From positions 1,054,001-1,118,000 of the forward strand of contig NZ_CP121194.1 of assembly GCF_039993895.1 (NCBI RefSeq): a stretch of DNA of 64,000 nucleotides, in the 5' to 3' direction. Below the pieces are notes generated by a model. That model saw only the letters and a program-made list of their open reading frames with translations, was not told where the DNA came from and did no database searches. The stretch is from Edaphobacter paludis. Its GTDB lineage: Bacteria > Acidobacteriota > Terriglobia > Terriglobales > Acidobacteriaceae. Below, piece after piece: positions 40,386-50,790 of the stretch (its first letter is position 1; each line of letters starts with the position of its first letter). The position numbers and the translations under genes are program-made.

Positions 40386-43300
40386 GTGAGAGAAACAGAG
40401 AAATGGCGGGTGTGCTTGTCGGGTTGGCTTAGGAGAGGATGTGCGGGTTTGAGGCTTAGGAGAGGAGGTACTGGGCTCGCGGCGGCGACTCGATTGATTG
40501 CCGCGCTTGTGCTGCTGGGCGGTTTTGCGACTGCGCAGAATATTCCTTCGCCTGTTCCCTCTCCGGTTCCGTCGACCACAGATGGAGAGCAGGCTCCTGC
40601 CGTGGTGCCGAACCCCAGGATTGTGCCGCAAGCGCCGACTGCGGAGACGCCGGAGGAGGCGCAGCAGCGGATCAACGCATCTCTGGCTGACTTTGGTCCG
40701 GCACTTTCGACGACAGTGTGGCAATGGAAGGGGTTGCACGTCAGCAAGATTGAATTTGAAGGGGTGACCTTCGATGCGACGGACAAGTTGCCGAGCCAGC
40801 TTGCGCAGAAGGCGGGCGCGCCCTTCGATCCGGAGAAGGTTCGCCAGAGCACGCGACGGTTATTTGCCAGCGGGCGTTATCGCGATGTCGAGGTGAGGGG
40901 CGTTCGGCAGGGCGACAGCGTAACGCTGATCTTTGCCGGATCGCCGCGGTATTACGTTGGCCGGGTGACAATTGCGAACGTCAAGAGCGAGCGACTGACT
41001 TCGTTGCTTGAGTATGCGACCAAACTGAGTCCGGGGACAGGGCTGACTCGAACGGCAGTGTCGGATGGAGTGGAGGGGATTAGACAGACGCTGGAGCAGC
41101 AGGGCTATTACCAGCCGAAGGTCTCTGCGAAGACGGTGACCGATGAAGCTGGAGACCAGGTCAATGTGACGTATACGGTCGATGTTGGGCCGCAGGCGCG
41201 CATCGGGCAGGTGCAGTTGGAGGGTACCGACCCTGGACTGACGCTGGAGCAGTTCAAGAAAAAGGGAAAGTTGAAGACCGGGAAAAAAGTGACCCGGGAC
41301 ACGACCAGCAATGCGCTGACGCGACTGCGCGCTCAATATCAGAAGAAGGACCATCTGGAAGCGGTGGTGACGCTGCAGAAGCAGACGTATGTCCCGGTGC
41401 GGAAACAACTGGACTACGACTTCCACGCTGACCAGGGACCGGTGGTAAAGGTACTGGTGGAGGGGGTGAAGCTCTCGAAGAGCCGCCTCCATCTACTGGT
41501 GCCGATCTTTGAAGAGGGGACCATCGACAACGACCTGCTGAACGAGGGCGTCTACAACATTCGCGACTACGTGCAGCAGCAGGGATACTTCGACGCGACG
41601 GTTCAGGTCCGCGTGATCGGAGAAGATACGCCGTCGGAGCGAGTGGTATTCACGGTCGATCGGGGCGCGAAGCACAAGGTGCTCGCTGTGAATATCAAGG
41701 GAAATAAGTACTTCACTGCGGACCTTCTCAAAGAGAGGATGCAGGTGCAGAAGGCCAATCTGTACCTGCGCAGTGGACGGTATAGCCCTTCGCTGGTGAC
41801 GGCGGATGTCAATTCGATTGAGGCGCTGTATCGAGCAAACGGCTTCGATCAGGCCAAGGTGACTACCGATGTTAAGGACGTTGATGATGCACCGGATGGC
41901 AAGCCTCTGAAATTCGCGCAGATTCGTGTGACCTATGTGGTGAATGAAGGGAAGCAACAGAAGTTTGGCACCGTCAACCTGGCTGGCGTCGATCCGAGCC
42001 GTATGACCGAGATCAAGGGCCTGATGAACTCGCAGCAGGGCCAGCCGTTTTCGCTGGTGACGCTTTCGGGCGACCGTGACGCGGTGCTGGGATACTACCT
42101 GAGTCACGGATTTGATCAGGTGAGGGTTGAGGTTAAACAGGAGAACAAGGCTGATGCCACCAAGGTCAATGTCGTGCTGAATGTGACCGAAGGGCCGCAG
42201 GTTTTTATCAATCATGTGTTGCTCTCGGGGATCGATCGCACCAAGCCGGCGGTGGTGGAAAAGCGCATCCTGGTGCACCCGGGCGACCCGCTCGACCAGA
42301 GCGCGCTGCTGGAGACGCAGAGAAATCTTTACAACATGGCACTCTTCAATGAGGTTGTGGCGGCAGTGCAGAATCCAGCGGGAGATGCGCCCACAAAGAA
42401 TGTACTGGTGCAGGTGACTGAGGCGAAGCGGTGGAATATTACATACGGAGTTGGACTCGAAGCGCAGACGGGCACCCCGAGCCGGGGCACGATCTCGGAG
42501 GCTTCGTGTATACAACTCGGCAATCCCAGTTGCAACAAAGATATAACCCAGAACGGTAAAGCGGGAGTCAGCCCGCGAGTATCGATCGACGTATCGAGAA
42601 TTAATCTACGCGGTACGGAAGACTCGCTGACGTTGCACGGGTCGTATGGGCTGTTGGAGGAGATTGGAACGCTGACCTTTCAGAATCCGCATTTGTTTGG
42701 GAGAAAGGATCTTTCGGCGAGCCTCTCTGGCGGTTACTCGAATGTGCAGGACATCACGACGTTTGCCTCTTCCACGCTGCAGGGTGATTTTCGGGTGACG
42801 GAGAAGGTGAAGCGCGCAGATACGTTTATGTACGACTTTCAGTACCGCAGGGTTAAGGTCGATCCCAACAGCCTACAGGTTTCGGCGGACTTGATCCCAT
42901 TACTCTCGCAGCCTGTCCGGGTAGGCGGGCCCGGGATTACGTGGTTCCACGACACGAGGTCGCCGAGTCCGCTGGATGCGGTGAAGGGCTCGTACACGAC
43001 CATCCAAGGTTTCCTGGCATCGTCGAAGTTCGGATCGCAGACCGACTTCTACAAGCTCGATGGAACCAACTCGACCTACTATGAGTTCGGCAAACAGAAA
43101 TATGTGCTGGCGCGAAGCACGCGTATTGGATATGAGCGGGCTTCGGGCGTGAATCCCAACGCAACAACGGACGTCTGTCAGGGAGTCCTGCTGACTACTA
43201 ACCCCAGTTGCGACGCTGTGCCGCTGCCGGAGCGGCTATATGCCGGCGGTGCGAGTTCGCATCGAGGTTTTGGAATCAATGCTGCGGGGCCGCGTGATCT

Positions 43301-43721
43301 ACAGACGGGTTTCCCGGTAGGCGGCAAGGCCGCGCTGGTCAATTCGCTCGAACTGCGTCTGCCGCCCCCGACGCTGCCCTATGTGGGGAGCAGCGTTAGC
43401 TTTGTGGTCTTTCACGATATGGGGAATGTGTTTCAGAATGCGGGCGATATGTTTCCCAGCTTTCTACGGTTTCATCAGCCGAACAAGCAGACGTGCTCGG
43501 ATGTATCGGGTAAGGTCGGCACGTGCAACTTCAACTATTTCTCTCATGCCGTTGGTTTGGGAGCGCGCTATAAGACTCCCGTTGGGCCGATCCGCGTGGA
43601 CTTCAGCTATAACCTGAATCCACCGATGTATCCGGTGATCTATGACTTCAATAATCATCCTCCACACGTAGGTCAGGCTGGTCACTTCAATTTTTTCTTC
43701 AGCATTGGACAGAGCTTCTAA
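40386..43721 (+). CDS. Omp85 outer-membrane assembly protein with about seven POTRA repeats
   Basis: A 1111-residue BamA/TamA-family protein. The signal region is near residues 31-52 (LIAALVLLGGFATAQ); the GTG at 40386 is uncertain and the start could lie up to 20 codons downstream. I count seven POTRA-like repeats starting at about residues 117, 190, 270, 352, 430, 524 and 605 (for example HVSKIEFEGV, KVLAVNIKGNKYFTADLL and FINHVLLSGI). A barrel from about 682 follows, with the L6-loop RGF motif (SSHRGFG, about 957). Canonical BamA has five repeats and TamA three. It is followed directly by a SurA-like gene (stop TAA immediately adjoining ATG) and tamB. Confidence 0.87.
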   Translation: MRETEKWRVCLSGWLRRGCAGLRLRRGGTGLAAATRLIAALVLLGGFATAQNIPSPVPSPVPSTTDGEQAPAVVPNPRIVPQAPTAETPEEAQQRINASLADFGPALSTTVWQWKGLHVSKIEFEGVTFDATDKLPSQLAQKAGAPFDPEKVRQSTRRLFASGRYRDVEVRGVRQGDSVTLIFAGSPRYYVGRVTIANVKSERLTSLLEYATKLSPGTGLTRTAVSDGVEGIRQTLEQQGYYQPKVSAKTVTDEAGDQVNVTYTVDVGPQARIGQVQLEGTDPGLTLEQFKKKGKLKTGKKVTRDTTSNALTRLRAQYQKKDHLEAVVTLQKQTYVPVRKQLDYDFHADQGPVVKVLVEGVKLSKSRLHLLVPIFEEGTIDNDLLNEGVYNIRDYVQQQGYFDATVQVRVIGEDTPSERVVFTVDRGAKHKVLAVNIKGNKYFTADLLKERMQVQKANLYLRSGRYSPSLVTADVNSIEALYRANGFDQAKVTTDVKDVDDAPDGKPLKFAQIRVTYVVNEGKQQKFGTVNLAGVDPSRMTEIKGLMNSQQGQPFSLVTLSGDRDAVLGYYLSHGFDQVRVEVKQENKADATKVNVVLNVTEGPQVFINHVLLSGIDRTKPAVVEKRILVHPGDPLDQSALLETQRNLYNMALFNEVVAAVQNPAGDAPTKNVLVQVTEAKRWNITYGVGLEAQTGTPSRGTISEASCIQLGNPSCNKDITQNGKAGVSPRVSIDVSRINLRGTEDSLTLHGSYGLLEEIGTLTFQNPHLFGRKDLSASLSGGYSNVQDITTFASSTLQGDFRVTEKVKRADTFMYDFQYRRVKVDPNSLQVSADLIPLLSQPVRVGGPGITWFHDTRSPSPLDAVKGSYTTIQGFLASSKFGSQTDFYKLDGTNSTYYEFGKQKYVLARSTRIGYERASGVNPNATTDVCQGVLLTTNPSCDAVPLPERLYAGGASSHRGFGINAAGPRDLQTGFPVGGKAALVNSLELRLPPPTLPYVGSSVSFVVFHDMGNVFQNAGDMFPSFLRFHQPNKQTCSDVSGKVGTCNFNYFSHAVGLGARYKTPVGPIRVDFSYNLNPPMYPVIYDFNNHPPHVGQAGHFNFFFSIGQSF

Positions 43722-44558
43722 ATGCAATGGATGAGACACAATGCGGGATTTGGGTTGGTTGGCGGACTGATGTTGGCGACTGCGTTGATGCAGCCTGGGA
43801 CGGGCTGGGCACAGGCTGCTGCCGTGCAGACGCCCACCGCACCGACGTCGGAAACACAGATGCCGACAGCGGAGCCCCCTGCGGCACAGAAGCCTGCCGC
43901 ACCACTTGGACCTGATTCGTCTCTGCCCGGGGCGGGACAGGGAGCCGTGCTCGACCGGGTCGTTGCAGTGGTGAACGGCGATTTGATTCTTGAGAGCGAT
44001 ATTGATGAGGAGCAGCGATTCGAGGAGATACAGCCTTACCGCGCTGTCGATTCGAACCACTCGCGCGAATTGACCGTGAGACGGCTCATCGATCGAACAC
44101 TGATCCTTCAGCAGGCAGAGGTTGAGCCCGAGACTGCGGTTTCAGACGGTGAACTCGACGCTCAGCTGGCAACGCTGCGCAAGGACATTCCGGCTTGCAA
44201 ACAGTATCACTGCGAGACTGAGGCGGGCTGGGCAAAGTATGTGAATGACCACGGTTTCACTGTGGAAGAGTTCCGCGCGCGATGGCGGCAGCGGATGGAG
44301 TTGCTGAAGTTCATCGAGGTGCGCTTTCGCAACGGCATTCGGATTTCGGACGACGATATCAAGGCATATTACGAAAAGACGATGCTGCCAGAGTATGCAA
44401 AGCGGCATGTGACGCCGCCGAAACTTGAGACGATTTCGCCGCGCATCGAAGAGGTGTTGCTGCAACAGCAGGTCGGCAACCTTCTACGGGACTGGCTGAC
44501 ATCGTTGCGTGCGCAGGGACGCGTACGAATTATGCGACCGGGTGAGGTGGCGCCGTGA
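43722..44558 (+). CDS. SurA-like periplasmic chaperone without PPIase domain
   Basis: A 278-residue exported protein: a signal peptide (cleavage near TGWAQA), a Pro/Ala/Thr-rich linker to about residue 70, then the SurA N-terminal domain (VLDRVVAVVNGDLILESDID, RRLIDRTLILQQAEVE, YVNDHGFTVEEFRARWRQRM). The sequence runs straight to the C-terminal helix (LLQQQVGNLLRDWLTSLRAQ) with no parvulin-type PPIase domain. It is therefore a chaperone-only SurA relative. ATG begins at the base after the Omp85 stop, and its own stop overlaps tamB by four bases (GTGA), so all three are coupled. Confidence 0.82.
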   Translation: MQWMRHNAGFGLVGGLMLATALMQPGTGWAQAAAVQTPTAPTSETQMPTAEPPAAQKPAAPLGPDSSLPGAGQGAVLDRVVAVVNGDLILESDIDEEQRFEEIQPYRAVDSNHSRELTVRRLIDRTLILQQAEVEPETAVSDGELDAQLATLRKDIPACKQYHCETEAGWAKYVNDHGFTVEEFRARWRQRMELLKFIEVRFRNGIRISDDDIKAYYEKTMLPEYAKRHVTPPKLETISPRIEEVLLQQQVGNLLRDWLTSLRAQGRVRIMRPGEVAP

Positions 44559-47500
44559 GCGATCGAGAGAAGATGCCGCTGCCCGAAAGACTGGAAGAGA
44601 AGCTCAATGAGGAGCTCGTCAAGATGAAGCGCTCCCTTGGCGGAAGAGCTGCGCACGTCATTGCGTGGATCTTTGGCGGCTTCAGCATTCTTCTGCTTGT
44701 TCTGGTGGCGGCGTTCTCCTGGTACTCGACGACGAATGATTTCAATCAGCGGGTAAGCAAAGCGGTTGTGAACGTGCTGGAGAATGCGACCGGCGGTCGC
44801 GTTGAACTTCAGAAGATCAGCTTCAAACTTTGGCACCTTGCCATCGAGGCCGATGGCCTTGTGATTCACGGGCTCGAAGGCCCGGGAGAAGCGCCGTATC
44901 TGTCGGCGGACAAGATACAGGTAAGCGTCAGGATCTTCAGCTTCTTTTCTCATGTAGCAGGCACCGGCATCGCATCGCACGTCAGCCTGAGCTTTCTGCG
45001 TGTGGACAATCCGCAGGTGCATCTGATAATCGACAAGAACGGGAAGACAAACCAGCCTGTGCCCAAGCATCCGAGTACGAGCAAGGAGCCGGTACTCGAT
45101 ACGCTGCTGGACCTGAAGGCGAAGCAGGTCGAACTGGCGAACGGCGTGCTCCTGCTGAACGATCGGGCGATTCCGTTTGATCTGGCAGCGCGCGATCTCG
45201 ATGCCGAGGTCCACTACATTGCATCGAGCGATCACTACGGTGCCACGGTCGATCTGAAAGACCTGCGGACGAAGCTTGACAAGGAGCCAGAGGCGAACTC
45301 CACGCTGCATGTCGAGGCCGAGGTAGGCCGGAACATGGCTGAGGTAAAAAACCTCGTGCTGCATACGGGCGAGGCATCGGAAGTGAAGGCGAGCGCGAGC
45401 ATCAAGAACTTCGCCCATCCTGAGTGGCAGGCAAGCGTAGACGGCACTCTGGAACTAAAGCAGATTGCCGTGTTGAGCGGCGTGGACGGATTGAAGGCTG
45501 GCACCGTGGACCTCGTCCTGAAAGGCCACAGTTGCTATACGACACCGGCTGCCGCGCAGAAGCATCCCAGATTCTGGCAGCGGCTTCATCCGAAATCGAA
45601 TGGGAAGCCGAGTACGAAGGTTCTGCCGCCCGACCCGGATTGCGTTGCTGGATATCTGCTGGTGGGCAACGCGAAGATACACAAGGCGGCCTATCGCGAT
45701 GAGTACGTCAGACTGAGCGATATAGACGGCAGCTCCGATTTACATATCACGCCGACGGAACTGCTGCTGACTGCGTTGACTGGGTACCTTCCCGGCGGGG
45801 GAAGCGCGGCGGGCGAGCTGCGCATATCCAACTGGCTGGGCGAGGTCCCGGCGAATGCTCCTGCTTCGCCCACGACGAAGGCCGCGGTGACCACTACCAA
45901 TGCAACGGCGAATGCGATGGGCGCAAAGGCTCCCATTACAGGAAAGATCGCGTTGCCGCCTGTCGAGCGGGCGCACGCCTATCTGTCGGCCACGATCAAC
46001 AAAATTCCGCTGCGCACCATCATGGATGTTACGGCGCCGGAGAACTATGGCGATCTGGGTTTTGATACCGCCGTGAGTGGCCCGGTCAAGATGGAATGGG
46101 GCGGCCCGGCGAAGGACATCGCCGACACGGTGGTCGCCGATGGCACACTGAAATTTGCGCCGACCGGAGTTCATCGCAAAGGTGCGCTCTCGGATATTCC
46201 GGTGACCGGCGAGGCGCGAGCGCATTACTCGGGAACTAACGAGACAGTCCAGATTGAGAATATAACGCTGCAGACGCCGCAATCGAACATCGACGCAAGT
46301 GGCATCCTGGGGGTAAATGAAGGCGATCCGCTGACGGCATTGCGCGTCGACTTGACGGTGCGCGACCTTGGCGAATACAACCAGTTGCTGTTGACGCTGG
46401 GACTCGAAGGGAATGGCAAGAAGGGCGCAGCGGCAATTCCTGTCGTGCTTCATGGAGCGCTCCAGTTCAACGGAACGGCGCGTGGAGCGATCCGCGATCT
46501 CGATGTGAAAGGCCACCTCGACGCGTCAAATGTAGAGGCGAAGATCGGCACGACGGATGCTCTGATCGATTCGCTTGTTGCGAACGCAGAGTACTCGCCC
46601 AACTCGGGACTGCTGGTGGCGACTTCGACGGTTAAGCGCGGAACCGCCGTACTGAAGGTGATTGGCGATTTGAAGCCGCGGAAGGTGGTATCGCATCGCG
46701 GCGTCACGACCTATGTGTGGGACGAAGGCATGGCTCTCGACGCGCAGGTGCAACTGGCCGATGCGCAGATGGCTGATTTGCTTGAGATAACCGGCCAACA
46801 GCAGAAGGTTCCGGTGACGGGAACGGTCGCTGCGAATGGGCATCTGTCGGGAACATTGAAGCAGTTAAACGGCAGTGGGCACCTCTCGCTGCTGAAGGGC
46901 ATTGCCTATGGAGAGCCGTATGACTCCGCTGCGGCTGACCTGACCGCGCACGGCCAGGATATTGAAGTGAGTAATGTTCTGTTGAAGCTTCATGGAATGG
47001 AGATTGCCGGCAATGGCGGCTACGACATGGGCAGTGAACATCTTCACGGCCACATCGAAGGGCAGAATCTTTTGCTGTCAAAGTTCGACACAGTGCAGAA
47101 GGCGAATTCCAGCGTAGACGCGACGCTGAGCGTGGTCGCCGATGCGAATGGCACCTTGAAAGAGCCGGGACTGAAGGCCAACGTGAAGCTGTCTGGCATC
47201 ACCGTCAAAGGGCAGCCTGTGGGCGATGCCGTCGCCGAGGCACACACGCAGGGCGAGACGATGTATGTCACGGCCAACTCAACAGCCGTCGGAGCGAAGC
47301 TCGTGGCGACGGGGCAGGTGCAGTTAAGTGGCAACTACGAAACTCAGGCGAAGGTGACGCTGACCGGCCTCGACATTGGCAAGCCATTGGCTATGTTTGG
47401 CACCGGCACCCTGAAGGCGCAGTCAGCGATCAATGGTACGGTCACGGTGAGCGGGCCGCTCAAGACACCGAAGGCGCTGAGTGGAACCGCGGAGTTCAAC

Positions 47501-48943
47501 CCGGTCGACGTGACGTTGCAGGGCGTGGAACTGAAGGCCGCCGAACCCTTGCGAGCGAGTCTGAAAGATGGAATGGCGACGGTGGAGCAGCTTCACATCA
47601 CCGGCCAGGACACGGACCTCAAGTTCAGCGGGACGGCGCAGATATTCGGCGTGACAGATCCGAAGGGTGGCAAGCTGAACGTGAAGGGAAGCGGAAGCGT
47701 CAGCATGGCGCTGCTGCATACATTCCGCTCCGACCTGATCACGAGTGGAAAGATCGAGTTTACGGTTGCCGCGGGCGGGCAGGTGAAGAACCCCGCGCTC
47801 ACTGGCAAGGTGCAGTTCGACAACGTGAACCTGGCTATGGACGGGATTCCGAACGGTCTCAACAAGATGAATGGCACGCTCGTCTTCAATGAAGACCGGC
47901 TGCAGGTCGAGAACCTGACGGCAACTACCGGAGGCGGTCAGTTGAAGATTGGCGGCTATATCCGCTATCGCAATGGCCTGTTTGCCGACCTGAACGCGAC
48001 TGGCGATGTCGTGAGGGTGCGGTTGTATGGCCTGAGTGCTACGGCAACCACAAAGCTGAGGTTGCAGGGTTCTTCGGACAGTGCGCTATTGAGCGGAACG
48101 GTGTTGCTGACAAGGTTCGGCGTCGGGCCGGATGTCGACCTTGCGGCATTTGCAGCGACTGGCGGCGTGAGTGCGCCGCCTGACCCGAATGCTCTCTCCA
48201 ACAAAATTCGCCTCAGTGTACGGATCACGAGTTCGCCGCAGCTGGACTTTCAAAACTCGTACGCCAAACTTGCGGGAACGGTGGACCTGACCGTACGCGG
48301 AACGGTTGCGACACCTTCCGTGCTGGGCCGCATCCAGATCACCGATGGCAGTGCGACTTTTGCGGGTACGAAGTACCAGTTGCAGCGCGGCGATGTCTAC
48401 TTTACCAACCCCGTGCGCATCGACCCGATCATTGATCTCGACGCCACCGCACAGGTCGAGAACTACGACATCACGGTCGGCCTGCATGGAACCATGACGA
48501 ACCTCAAGCCGACGTACAGATCGGAGCCTCCGTTGAGCGAAGCCGACGTTTTCGCTCTGCTGGCGCTCGGCCGCACCCAGGAAGAGGCGCAGATTTATTC
48601 GGAGAAGCAGGCGCAGGCGGGCACAGATCCGACGACCAGCGCGCTGCTTGGCGGAGCACTGAATGCGACCGTGAGCAATCGCGTGGAGAAGCTGTTCGGT
48701 GTGGGAAGTGTGAAGATCGATCCCGCATTCGTGGGAACGCTGGGAAACTCGGCGGCAAGAATTACGGTGCAGCAGCAGCTATCGAAGCAGATCACGGCGA
48801 CCTTTGCCACCAACGTTAACAGTTCGGCGCAGCAGTTGATCCAGGTGCAATATGACCTGAATCACAATATGTCCATCGTGGTGACGCGCGACGAGTCCAA
48901 CGTCTTCAGTATTGTTTATAAGCTGCGGCAAAGGTATCGTTAG
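44555..48943 (+). CDS. tamB: Translocation and assembly module protein TamB
   Basis: A 1462-residue inner-membrane-anchored, periplasm-spanning protein with one helix (about 36-55, AWIFGGFSILLLVLVAAFSW) and a very long beta-helical groove that carries lipid to the outer membrane. The N-terminal AsmA-like part has VLENATGGRVELQKISFKLW. The C-terminal DUF490 domain is clear: PTYRSEPPLSEADVFALLAL, NRVEKLFGVGSVKIDPAF and ITATFATNVNSSAQQLIQVQ, ending SIVYKLRQRYR. The start is GTG 44555 overlapping the SurA-like stop. The adjacent Omp85 protein should be its outer-membrane partner. Confidence 0.9.
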   Translation: MSDREKMPLPERLEEKLNEELVKMKRSLGGRAAHVIAWIFGGFSILLLVLVAAFSWYSTTNDFNQRVSKAVVNVLENATGGRVELQKISFKLWHLAIEADGLVIHGLEGPGEAPYLSADKIQVSVRIFSFFSHVAGTGIASHVSLSFLRVDNPQVHLIIDKNGKTNQPVPKHPSTSKEPVLDTLLDLKAKQVELANGVLLLNDRAIPFDLAARDLDAEVHYIASSDHYGATVDLKDLRTKLDKEPEANSTLHVEAEVGRNMAEVKNLVLHTGEASEVKASASIKNFAHPEWQASVDGTLELKQIAVLSGVDGLKAGTVDLVLKGHSCYTTPAAAQKHPRFWQRLHPKSNGKPSTKVLPPDPDCVAGYLLVGNAKIHKAAYRDEYVRLSDIDGSSDLHITPTELLLTALTGYLPGGGSAAGELRISNWLGEVPANAPASPTTKAAVTTTNATANAMGAKAPITGKIALPPVERAHAYLSATINKIPLRTIMDVTAPENYGDLGFDTAVSGPVKMEWGGPAKDIADTVVADGTLKFAPTGVHRKGALSDIPVTGEARAHYSGTNETVQIENITLQTPQSNIDASGILGVNEGDPLTALRVDLTVRDLGEYNQLLLTLGLEGNGKKGAAAIPVVLHGALQFNGTARGAIRDLDVKGHLDASNVEAKIGTTDALIDSLVANAEYSPNSGLLVATSTVKRGTAVLKVIGDLKPRKVVSHRGVTTYVWDEGMALDAQVQLADAQMADLLEITGQQQKVPVTGTVAANGHLSGTLKQLNGSGHLSLLKGIAYGEPYDSAAADLTAHGQDIEVSNVLLKLHGMEIAGNGGYDMGSEHLHGHIEGQNLLLSKFDTVQKANSSVDATLSVVADANGTLKEPGLKANVKLSGITVKGQPVGDAVAEAHTQGETMYVTANSTAVGAKLVATGQVQLSGNYETQAKVTLTGLDIGKPLAMFGTGTLKAQSAINGTVTVSGPLKTPKALSGTAEFNPVDVTLQGVELKAAEPLRASLKDGMATVEQLHITGQDTDLKFSGTAQIFGVTDPKGGKLNVKGSGSVSMALLHTFRSDLITSGKIEFTVAAGGQVKNPALTGKVQFDNVNLAMDGIPNGLNKMNGTLVFNEDRLQVENLTATTGGGQLKIGGYIRYRNGLFADLNATGDVVRVRLYGLSATATTKLRLQGSSDSALLSGTVLLTRFGVGPDVDLAAFAATGGVSAPPDPNALSNKIRLSVRITSSPQLDFQNSYAKLAGTVDLTVRGTVATPSVLGRIQITDGSATFAGTKYQLQRGDVYFTNPVRIDPIIDLDATAQVENYDITVGLHGTMTNLKPTYRSEPPLSEADVFALLALGRTQEEAQIYSEKQAQAGTDPTTSALLGGALNATVSNRVEKLFGVGSVKIDPAFVGTLGNSAARITVQQQLSKQITATFATNVNSSAQQLIQVQYDLNHNMSIVVTRDESNVFSIVYKLRQRYR

Positions 48944-49036
48944 AGCCGATGGAGGGCATTTTTTGCATCTTATCTGTGTGATTTGCCGCGGACCGGCCCG
49001 GATACGCTGAGGCTGGTCTGCCGGAAGGAAAGATCG

Positions 49037-49840
49037 ATGCCAGTGAAGAAGAACGTGAAGATTGCAGCACTCCTCGGGTTGTCGTGTGCGCTTATGTTTG
49101 GTCCCGTTACTAAAGGCGTAGCACAGGCCCCTGCGGCAACTGCGGCCAGCAGTTCGTCCGACGCGCAGATTCAGGCGGACGTTATGAAGGCGCTGAGCAA
49201 CAGGAGATTCAAAGGGGTCACTGCTACCGTTCAGGACGGCATCGTCACGCTGAACGGTACGGTTGATGTCTATAGCGACAAGGAAGACGCGGACAAGCGG
49301 GCGCATCGCCGCAAGAATGTGAAGGGCGTTCAGAACCTGATTGAAATTGGCGGCCCGGTAGTCGACGATGCGACGCTACGCAATAAGCTGGCGGAAAAGC
49401 TTGCTTACGACCGCGTCGGTTATGGAACGACCGCCTTCAACGCCTTGACCATCGGCGTCAAGAATGGTGTGGTCAGCCTGGGAGGCACAGCCTATGGCCC
49501 GGTCGATCGGGACTCGGCGGTCAGCCTGGTTTCGAACTATCCCGGAGTAAAGGACGTGATCGACAACATCAACGTCGCGCCCGTATCGCCAATGGATGAC
49601 CGCATTCGGTTGGCAGAGGCACGGGCCATTTACGGCGCGCCGCAGTTGAATAAGTATGCGCTCGATCCGGCCAAGCCTATTCGGATCACGGTCATCAATG
49701 GCAACGTCACCTTGTCGGGTGTGGTGGATAGCCAGTCGGACAAAGACATTGCCAACATCCGCGCGAACGGCGTTCCGGGAGTCTTCAAGGTGATCAACGA
49801 CCTGCAAGTCGCTGGCGCGCCACCTGAAGCCGAGAAATAG
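49037..49840 (+). CDS. BON-domain periplasmic protein
   Basis: A 267-residue exported protein (ATG 49037, MPVKKNVKIAALLGLSCALM; AAGGAAAG lies upstream). It has three BON-type domains, near residues 45-105, 110-180 and 195-255: VTATVQDGIVTLNGTVDVYS, ALTIGVKNGVVSLGGTAYG and RITVINGNVTLSGVVDSQSD. BON domains bind phospholipid membranes, as in OsmY and Kbp. It probably helps maintain the envelope. A short hairpin follows before ubiA. Confidence 0.87.
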   Translation: MPVKKNVKIAALLGLSCALMFGPVTKGVAQAPAATAASSSSDAQIQADVMKALSNRRFKGVTATVQDGIVTLNGTVDVYSDKEDADKRAHRRKNVKGVQNLIEIGGPVVDDATLRNKLAEKLAYDRVGYGTTAFNALTIGVKNGVVSLGGTAYGPVDRDSAVSLVSNYPGVKDVIDNINVAPVSPMDDRIRLAEARAIYGAPQLNKYALDPAKPIRITVINGNVTLSGVVDSQSDKDIANIRANGVPGVFKVINDLQVAGAPPEAEK

Positions 49841-49871
49841 ATTTAGAAATAGTTCAGATTGATAAAGCATT

Positions 49872-49908
49872 GGGGCTACCTCGACAAACGGCGGGGTTGC
49901 CCCAATTC
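49872..49908 (+). terminator. Possible weak terminator after BON gene
   Basis: GGGGCTACC (49872-49880) pairs with GGTTGCCCC (49895-49903) with one mismatch, followed by AATTC then TTTTA. The T tract is interrupted, so confidence is limited. Confidence 0.4.
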
Positions 49909-49923
49909 TTTTACGATAGAGCA

Positions 49924-50790
49924 ATGAGCTCATTGTGGAAGAGTACGGTTGTAACGCTTGAGATGATCAAGTGGGAGCACTCGATCTTTGCGCTGCCGTT
50001 CGCGCTTACCGGAGCGGTGCTGGCCGCCGATGGCTGGCCTCCGCTGCGGGTGCTGGGCTGGATCGTGGTTTGCATGGTGGCAGCGCGGTCGGCGGCGATG
50101 GCCTTCAACCGCCTTGTCGATGCTCGTCTTGATGCGGCCAATCCAAGGACGGCGATGCGGGCAATTCCTGCAGGTGCCTTGAGCGGGAGATTCGTCGGCG
50201 GCTTTGTTGTGGTATCGGTGGTTGTCTTCGCGCTCGGTGCGGCGATGCTGAACAAACTTACCCTCGAACTCGCTCCAGTAGCGCTGGCCGTGGTGCTGGC
50301 ATACAGCTACATGAAGCGCATTACGCGATGGTCGCACTTAGTTCTGGGACTGGCGCTGGGGATTGCTCCATCGGCAGCATGGATCGCAGTGCGTGGACAC
50401 TTCGATATGCGCATCGCGGTGCTGACGGTCGCTGTGCTGCTGTGGGTCGGCGGCTTTGACGTGCTTTATGCCTGCCAGGATTTTGAGCATGATCGCAAGG
50501 TCGGGCTGAATAGCGTGCCGCAGGCTTTTGGCATCGCCCCCGCATTCTGGATCGCTCGCGCCATGCATGCCGGTATGCTGCTAATGCTCTGCTGGCTGAT
50601 CGTGCTCTTCGGGCTTGGGAAGGTCGCTGTGTTTGGCGTGGTGCTGGTGGCATTGTTGCTGCTCTACGAGCATCTGATCATTTCGCCGAAAGACATGCGG
50701 CGGATGAATGCAGCCTTCTTTACCCTGAACGGTGTTATCTCGGTGGTGTTTTTTGGCTTCGTCGCGGCGGACGTCTTACTCCGGCGATAA
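49924..50790 (+). CDS. UbiA-family prenyltransferase
   Basis: A 288-residue integral membrane prenyltransferase (ATG 49924, MSSLWKSTVV). The two aspartate-rich motifs are FNRLVDARLDAANPRT and YACQDFEHDRKVGLNSV, both with the expected spacing of about 90 residues. It likely prenylates an aromatic ring for quinone synthesis (UbiA-like), though MenA-like activity is possible; no other quinone gene is nearby. About eight transmembrane helices are predicted. A perfect terminator follows. Confidence 0.88.
   Translation: MSSLWKSTVVTLEMIKWEHSIFALPFALTGAVLAADGWPPLRVLGWIVVCMVAARSAAMAFNRLVDARLDAANPRTAMRAIPAGALSGRFVGGFVVVSVVVFALGAAMLNKLTLELAPVALAVVLAYSYMKRITRWSHLVLGLALGIAPSAAWIAVRGHFDMRIAVLTVAVLLWVGGFDVLYACQDFEHDRKVGLNSVPQAFGIAPAFWIARAMHAGMLLMLCWLIVLFGLGKVAVFGVVLVALLLLYEHLIISPKDMRRMNAAFFTLNGVISVVFFGFVAADVLLRR

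Follow-up and report, generated by a model that had tools for sequence, protein, structure and literature searches.

The window analysed here, the whole 64-kb stretch of DNA, contains on its forward strand three genes without gaps between them, which encode an Omp85 protein, a protein resembling the core of the chaperone SurA, and TamB. The features are as follows.

40386-43721, + strand: Omp85 protein of the TamB-linked class, seven POTRA domains and a barrel (1111-aa open reading frame)
40737-40934, + strand: POTRA 1 (PF07244, 31.2 bits; AlphaFold2 model)
40950-41186, + strand: POTRA 2 (PF07244, 36.9 bits; AlphaFold2 model)
41199-41396, + strand: POTRA 3 (PF07244, 25.8 bits; complete unit in the AlphaFold2 model, block pLDDT 86-93)
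41448-41666, + strand: POTRA 4 (PF07244, 37.3 bits; AlphaFold2 model)
41679-41951, + strand: POTRA 5 (PF07244, 42.4 bits; AlphaFold2 model)
41964-42194, + strand: POTRA 6 (PF07244, 32.6 bits; AlphaFold2 model)
42207-42422, + strand: POTRA 7, adjoining the barrel (PF07244, 28 bits; AlphaFold2 model)
42603-43718, + strand: Omp85 beta-barrel (PF01103, 116.1 bits; AlphaFold2 model; matches to Sam50, BamA and TamA barrels)
43722-44558, + strand: SurA-core-like protein, 278 aa, no PPIase domain (near-cut-off SurA_N matches, model, conserved position)
44555-48943, + strand: TamB, 1462 aa (PF04357, 122 bits), overlapping the preceding gene by 4 bases

The Omp85 frame has a predicted GTG start, and its TAA stop codon (43719-43721) abuts the ATG of the SurA-core gene at 43722, while the GTG of tamB at 44555 falls where tamB and the end of the SurA-core gene overlap by 4 bases. 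One gene and no gaps separate Omp85 from TamB, the partnership looked for in a TAM. The first-pass annotation took the three genes for a tight operon, and the abutting and overlapping reading frames, in an order kept in close relatives, suggest that they form one. Promoters and terminators were predicted no more often than in shuffled sequence, and Rfam and tRNA scans of the 64-kb window were empty. The forward strand continues past tamB with ORFs (48983-50790) that we take to resemble a BON-domain protein and a UbiA-type prenyltransferase.

How many POTRA domains does the Omp85 protein possess? Over the whole protein Pfam finds PF07244 in seven stretches (E 1.4e-54), and in the search of its own genome all seven lie above the cut-off of 21.3 bits, POTRA 3 being the weakest. 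The matches start at about residues 118, 189, 272, 355, 432, 527 and 608, nearly identical to the seven positions proposed from the letters of the sequence (about 117, 190, 270, 352, 430, 524 and 605). Structure prediction, which the first-pass annotation had suggested beside a profile search, agrees: the AlphaFold2 model (58-sequence alignment; mean pLDDT 83.5, pTM 0.61) consists of seven beta-alpha-alpha-beta-beta units, at model residues 34-103, 106-182, 188-265, 269-341, 346-436, 442-517 and 523-595 (protein numbering is the model residue plus 84), with the barrel after them. Together the Pfam matches and the model rule out fewer than seven POTRAs or chance matches, and the Pfam score and predicted fold of POTRA 3 support it as genuine. 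An in-house POTRA profile gives seven matches in 55 of 58 aligned Omp85 homologues and six in the other three; it was built from these homologues and phylum relatives, is not independent evidence, and undercounts (five in E. coli BamA, four of five in the organism's own BamA, two of three in E. coli TamA). In Foldseek searches with the Omp85 model, solved BamA chains rank first, and after realignment the structural matches are Sam50, BamA and TamA chains. By eye, there is no cysteine directly behind the signal-like stretch of the Omp85 protein.

The 278-aa protein encoded between Omp85 and TamB is like SurA in that its model, with a core pLDDT above 90, best matches SurA bound to BAM (TM by target 0.69-0.73 for the top three SurA chains on BAM), and by the model and these structure matches it has the SurA core fold. 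Unlike SurA, it has no parvulin PPIase domain (Pfam, up to E 1), and its SurA_N matches fall slightly below the Pfam cut-offs. Three rotamase matches are found elsewhere in the genome, as are two weak relatives of the SurA-core protein, both in frames with a PPIase domain. A hydrophobic, signal-like stretch can be discerned by eye at its N terminus. The 56 SurA-core proteins of one alignment (A2, the window and 55 of 79 loci) have in common an invariant CX4C cysteine pair (C159, C164), which is missing from the aligned SurA-like proteins of other families and from three of the window's own family (L159, L168, L171). The third protein belongs to the TamB family (PF04357, 122 bits against a cut-off of 22.4), although it scores only 35.5 bits on the NCBI TamB equivalog model, whose cut-off is 825. 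Its gene is the sole one found with PF04357 in the search of its own genome, and the protein has, by eye, a hydrophobic stretch near residues 35-55.

A second Omp85 protein beside a separate BAM

The source genome, a single contig of 4.04 Mb that is 99.5% complete and of which the window covers C1:1054001-1118000, contains two PF01103 genes: that of the seven-POTRA Omp85 and that of a canonical BamA of 966 aa (C1:3821664-3824561) with five POTRAs, which scores 433.5 bits on the NCBI BamA model. There are also three matches to the BamD-type YfiO, the best with an E of 9e-31. A second bamA was what the first-pass annotation had advised looking for, and its presence contradicts the proposal there of a module in place of separate BAM and TAM systems, as the same chromosome encodes a five-POTRA BamA and a BamD homologue. 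Replacement of BAM by the window's Omp85 is ruled out by the second PF01103 gene, its five POTRAs, the barrel tree and the BamD homologue; we read the module as a TAM-type supplement to a separate BAM. The organism's own BamA has a match in all 50 Acidobacteriota genomes searched, and the barrel tree includes those from 26 of the other 49. Far from bamA lies a 460-base copy of its 3' end, 98.9% identical (L251 4126-4585; G000:C1 at about 1981125-1981584), which leaves a 145-aa ORF with the barrel end.

With seven POTRAs the Omp85 protein has neither the five of BamA nor the three of TamA. It passes the NCBI BamA equivalog TIGR03303 (327 bits against a cut-off of 297.15) and fails the NCBI TamA equivalog (82 against 625 bits). 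The barrel tree, which is of the quick kind, unrooted and with long branches, has 116 rows, five of 121 having been dropped for odd length or lack of a POTRA match, L181 omitted, and the unfused rows thinned to about one per family. It places 28 BamAs (from E. coli, this organism and the 26 other acidobacterial genomes) on one side of a branch with support of 99, and gathers 82 TamB-linked Omp85s, including the window's, into one group outside BamA (support 98). The tree puts E. coli TamA not in the seven-POTRA group but, on an unsure branch (88), next to short proteins of acidobacteria that have about three POTRA matches. Five such short Omp85s, encoded beside TamB (L099, L107, L121, L144 and L146), group weakly with E. 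coli TamA.

Conservation and fusion in the Acidobacteriota

A search by Omp85 alone found 237 loci in close relatives, of which 80 were kept, 57 of them aligned with the window's Omp85 in alignment A1. Two loci (L038 and L044) are titled Rhodanobacteraceae and are perhaps misbinned; the remainder are titled Acidobacteria or carry genus names that we take to be Acidobacteriaceae. One of the loci, L046, is that of the isolate Terriglobus roseus DSM 18391. A SurA-like gene is found downstream of Omp85 in 79 of the 80 loci and TamB in 78, the exceptions (L050 and L056) being contigs that end too soon. In the phylum, PF04357 is present in 129 of 149 genomes, among the matches listed, and from these we sampled 120 TamB regions of 100 genomes and 52 families; the 29 TamB-positive genomes omitted were the organism's own, eight others of its family, four of family f19, 11 of f21, and one each of f2, f5, f12, f15 and f45. 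In one genus of f45 (g65), none of the six sampled genomes (G081, G098, G107, G116, G124 and G148) has a PF04357 match among those listed, possibly a natural loss of TamB.

A separate Omp85 accompanies TamB in 72 of the 120 regions, parts of the two share one frame in 34, and TamB is alone in 14. Among the 72 unfused modules, 40 include a SurA-like gene, arranged as TamB-Omp85-SurA in 33 and as Omp85-SurA-TamB in seven, six of the latter from the window's family. The other 32, some of them cut by contig ends, have no SurA-like gene in the region and are ordered TamB-Omp85 (27) or Omp85-TamB (4), plus one with TamB over two frames. No match to the SurA-like profile was found in the 34 fused regions, two of which end at a contig edge, or in the 14 with TamB alone. 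The presence of a SurA-like gene in 40 of 72 unfused modules versus 0 of 32 fused ones with at least 600 bases downstream gives a Fisher p of 6e-9, a value that ignores relatedness and counts as lacking the gene some unfused modules cut by contig ends. Given its absence from 32 of the unfused and all of the fused modules, the chaperone is not universal in the module. Nor are seven POTRAs a phylum-wide rule, since 13 of the 72 unfused Omp85s have two or three matches to the undercounting profile, some of the 72 proteins being cut by contig ends (seven matches in 29, six in 24, five in 4, four in 2, three in 9 and two in 4). In the window's family, two genomes each have an additional Omp85-TamB pair (L165 and L203) with no SurA-like gene in the region.

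TamB and Omp85 occupy one open frame, of 1855-2779 codons, in 33 of the 149 genomes, among the matches listed. All listed TamB matches with a frame of at least 1855 aa were fetched, and all 34 were called fused. They come from 33 genomes and 21 families. In L181 the POTRAs share the TamB frame and the barrel has slipped into another; without it the numbers are 32 and 20. L102 has one POTRA match, and in L200 and L217 the frame is cut off by the end of the contig. In ten genomes a fused module coexists with an unfused one. Most fused calls were made with in-house profiles together with the Pfam TamB match; Pfam on whole frames gave TamB, POTRA and Omp85 in the three that were scanned, and the organism's own BamA, as a BLAST query, matches inside four (G005, G028, G032 and G040). 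The domain order, in seven frames, is TamB, POTRAs, barrel. The POTRA span is about five lengths in 27 of 33 fused proteins, seven in two, six in two, four in one and one in one. The TamB C-terminus is retained, with 18-160 residues (median 42.5) between the TamB and POTRA matches, the largest gaps being in frames where the TamB match stops early. The stretch between TamB and POTRA 1 is mostly without a signal-like hydrophobic run: the maximum 12-residue hydropathy is -0.12 to 1.59 in the 60 residues before POTRA 1 of the 34 fused frames. For comparison, 59 unfused proteins with at least four POTRA matches reach 1.2 to 3.43 over the 110 residues that precede the first match; these stretches differ in length, and two of the unfused values fall within the fused range. 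An internal re-start of Omp85 within the fused frames is unlikely given their low hydropathy before POTRA 1.

Has the fusion a single history? In the barrel tree 29 fused rows form a single group (support 82), the seven-POTRA fused L116 and L179 sit with the unfused L126 (99), and the fused L158 sits with an unfused row inside another unfused group (96). With labels set by architecture before the tree was made, one origin of the fused form is rejected by the AU test (p 4.3e-7), so that fusion, or splitting, would have happened more than once; gain and loss are indistinguishable on an unrooted tree.

A probable TAM-type module and its alternatives

We consider it probable that the locus is an acidobacterial form of TAM, in which a seven-POTRA Omp85 docks TamB, with a SurA-type protein as third component, beside a normal BAM. 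The Omp85 and TamB of the window most likely form one trans-envelope unit, for which the fused relatives provide indirect support as to a physical complex; of the combined module first proposed, the joint unit is thereby favoured, and the inclusion of BAM, which is separate, falls away. TamB, with a putative anchor in the inner membrane, would span the periplasm, with its C-terminal strand meeting the Omp85 barrel. In cryo-EM of E. coli TamAB, TamB lies on the POTRAs with its last strand on beta 1 of TamA (PMC12800296), and in a Borrelia model TamB strands complete the BamA barrel and closure of a POTRA ring is proposed (PMC13382580). By curling back, the POTRA array may keep TamB close to the membrane. 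The POTRAs may receive outer-membrane proteins, still unfolded, from the SurA-core protein, and the groove of TamB, judged by TamB homology, could conduct phospholipid. We lean slightly towards a history of more than one fusion or splitting in which, should the C-terminal strand of TamB meet the barrel in the manner of E. coli TamAB, a short linker to POTRA 1 would curl the POTRAs back. Against the TAM reading we count that the BamA equivalog accepts the Omp85 while the TamA and TamB equivalogs do not accept their counterparts here, and that BamA comes first in Foldseek. Also on this side are the many modules lacking a SurA-like gene, the position of E. coli TamA in the tree and the unfused Omp85s with two or three POTRA matches.

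The module is like the proteobacterial TAM in that Omp85 and TamB are encoded side by side, apart from BAM, and unlike TamA, with its three POTRAs (PMC4104836), the Omp85 has seven and a SurA-core gene in its operon. The BamA-TamB hybrid of Borrelia similarly has a BamA-type Omp85 as the TamB partner (PMC13382580), although Spirochaetes have no BamA apart from the TamB-linked protein, which bears five POTRAs (PMC4494059), whereas here there are two separate proteins. It is also reminiscent of TamL-TamB of Bacteroidota, where a lineage-specific Omp85 is the TamB partner, but TamL is a lipoprotein with three POTRAs ('Omp85 lipoprotein', PMC4104836), and no cysteine follows the signal-like stretch here. 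The closest precedent is that of Heinz, Selkrig, Belousoff and Lithgow (2015; PMC4494059), who described second BamA copies in TamB operons of Acidobacteria, grouping with TamA and some with seven POTRAs. The window's gene belongs with these, sharing the phylum, the TamB operon, a canonical BamA besides, and the seven POTRAs, and the core of our finding, a second seven-POTRA Omp85 in a TamB operon, is already known from that work. The words SurA, fusion and fused are absent from its main text. The literature searched on TamB-Omp85 fusion, TamB with SurA and TamB in Acidobacteria, with preprints outside its scope and few subscription papers covered, reports no natural fusion and no SurA-like gene in a TamB-Omp85 operon. 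Two extensions were not found in print: the SurA-core gene kept with the module, and the TamB-Omp85 single frames.

Could the module be mainly a phospholipid bridge, with TamB as conduit, Omp85 as anchor and little or no folding of barrels? TAM's share in protein folding versus phospholipid movement is disputed, and lipid bridging has been proposed for the AsmA-like class to which TamB belongs (PMC11014939). The genome has one TamB and one AsmA match (PF04357 and PF05170 searched). However, the operon's SurA-core protein suggests substrates that are unfolded proteins, and the Omp85 barrel is well conserved. We regard a mainly lipid-bridging role as possible, though doubtful; it is compatible with the TAM reading, which leaves the shares of folding and lipid transport undivided. 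A second BAM, in which the Omp85, as a BamA paralogue with added POTRAs, would fold barrel proteins of its own and TamB would only be co-regulated, would account for the score above the BamA equivalog cut-off, the BamA chains at the head of the Foldseek matches and the SurA-type protein encoded next door. It is improbable, as the Omp85 lies outside the BamA group in the tree, and the TamB linkage survives different gene orders and fusion at more than one place in the tree, which exceeds what co-regulation needs. That five or fewer of the POTRAs are true and the rest spacer, in keeping with the suggestion that divergent inner POTRAs such as POTRA 3 of seven are possibly not genuine (PMC4494059) and with POTRA 3 being the weakest Pfam match, is scarcely credible with that match above cut-off and modelled as a full fold at high confidence.

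A SurA-core gene in the module would speak for substrates that are proteins. For annotation, we caution that the NCBI BamA equivalog accepts the window's TamB-linked Omp85, the true BamA and a fused frame alike. The single-chain TamB-Omp85 proteins, if they remain uncut, would fix a 1:1 stoichiometry and be one-gene material for structure determination and reconstitution, and the curling of the POTRAs back towards the barrel, if true, would make them a natural ruler for TAM geometry.
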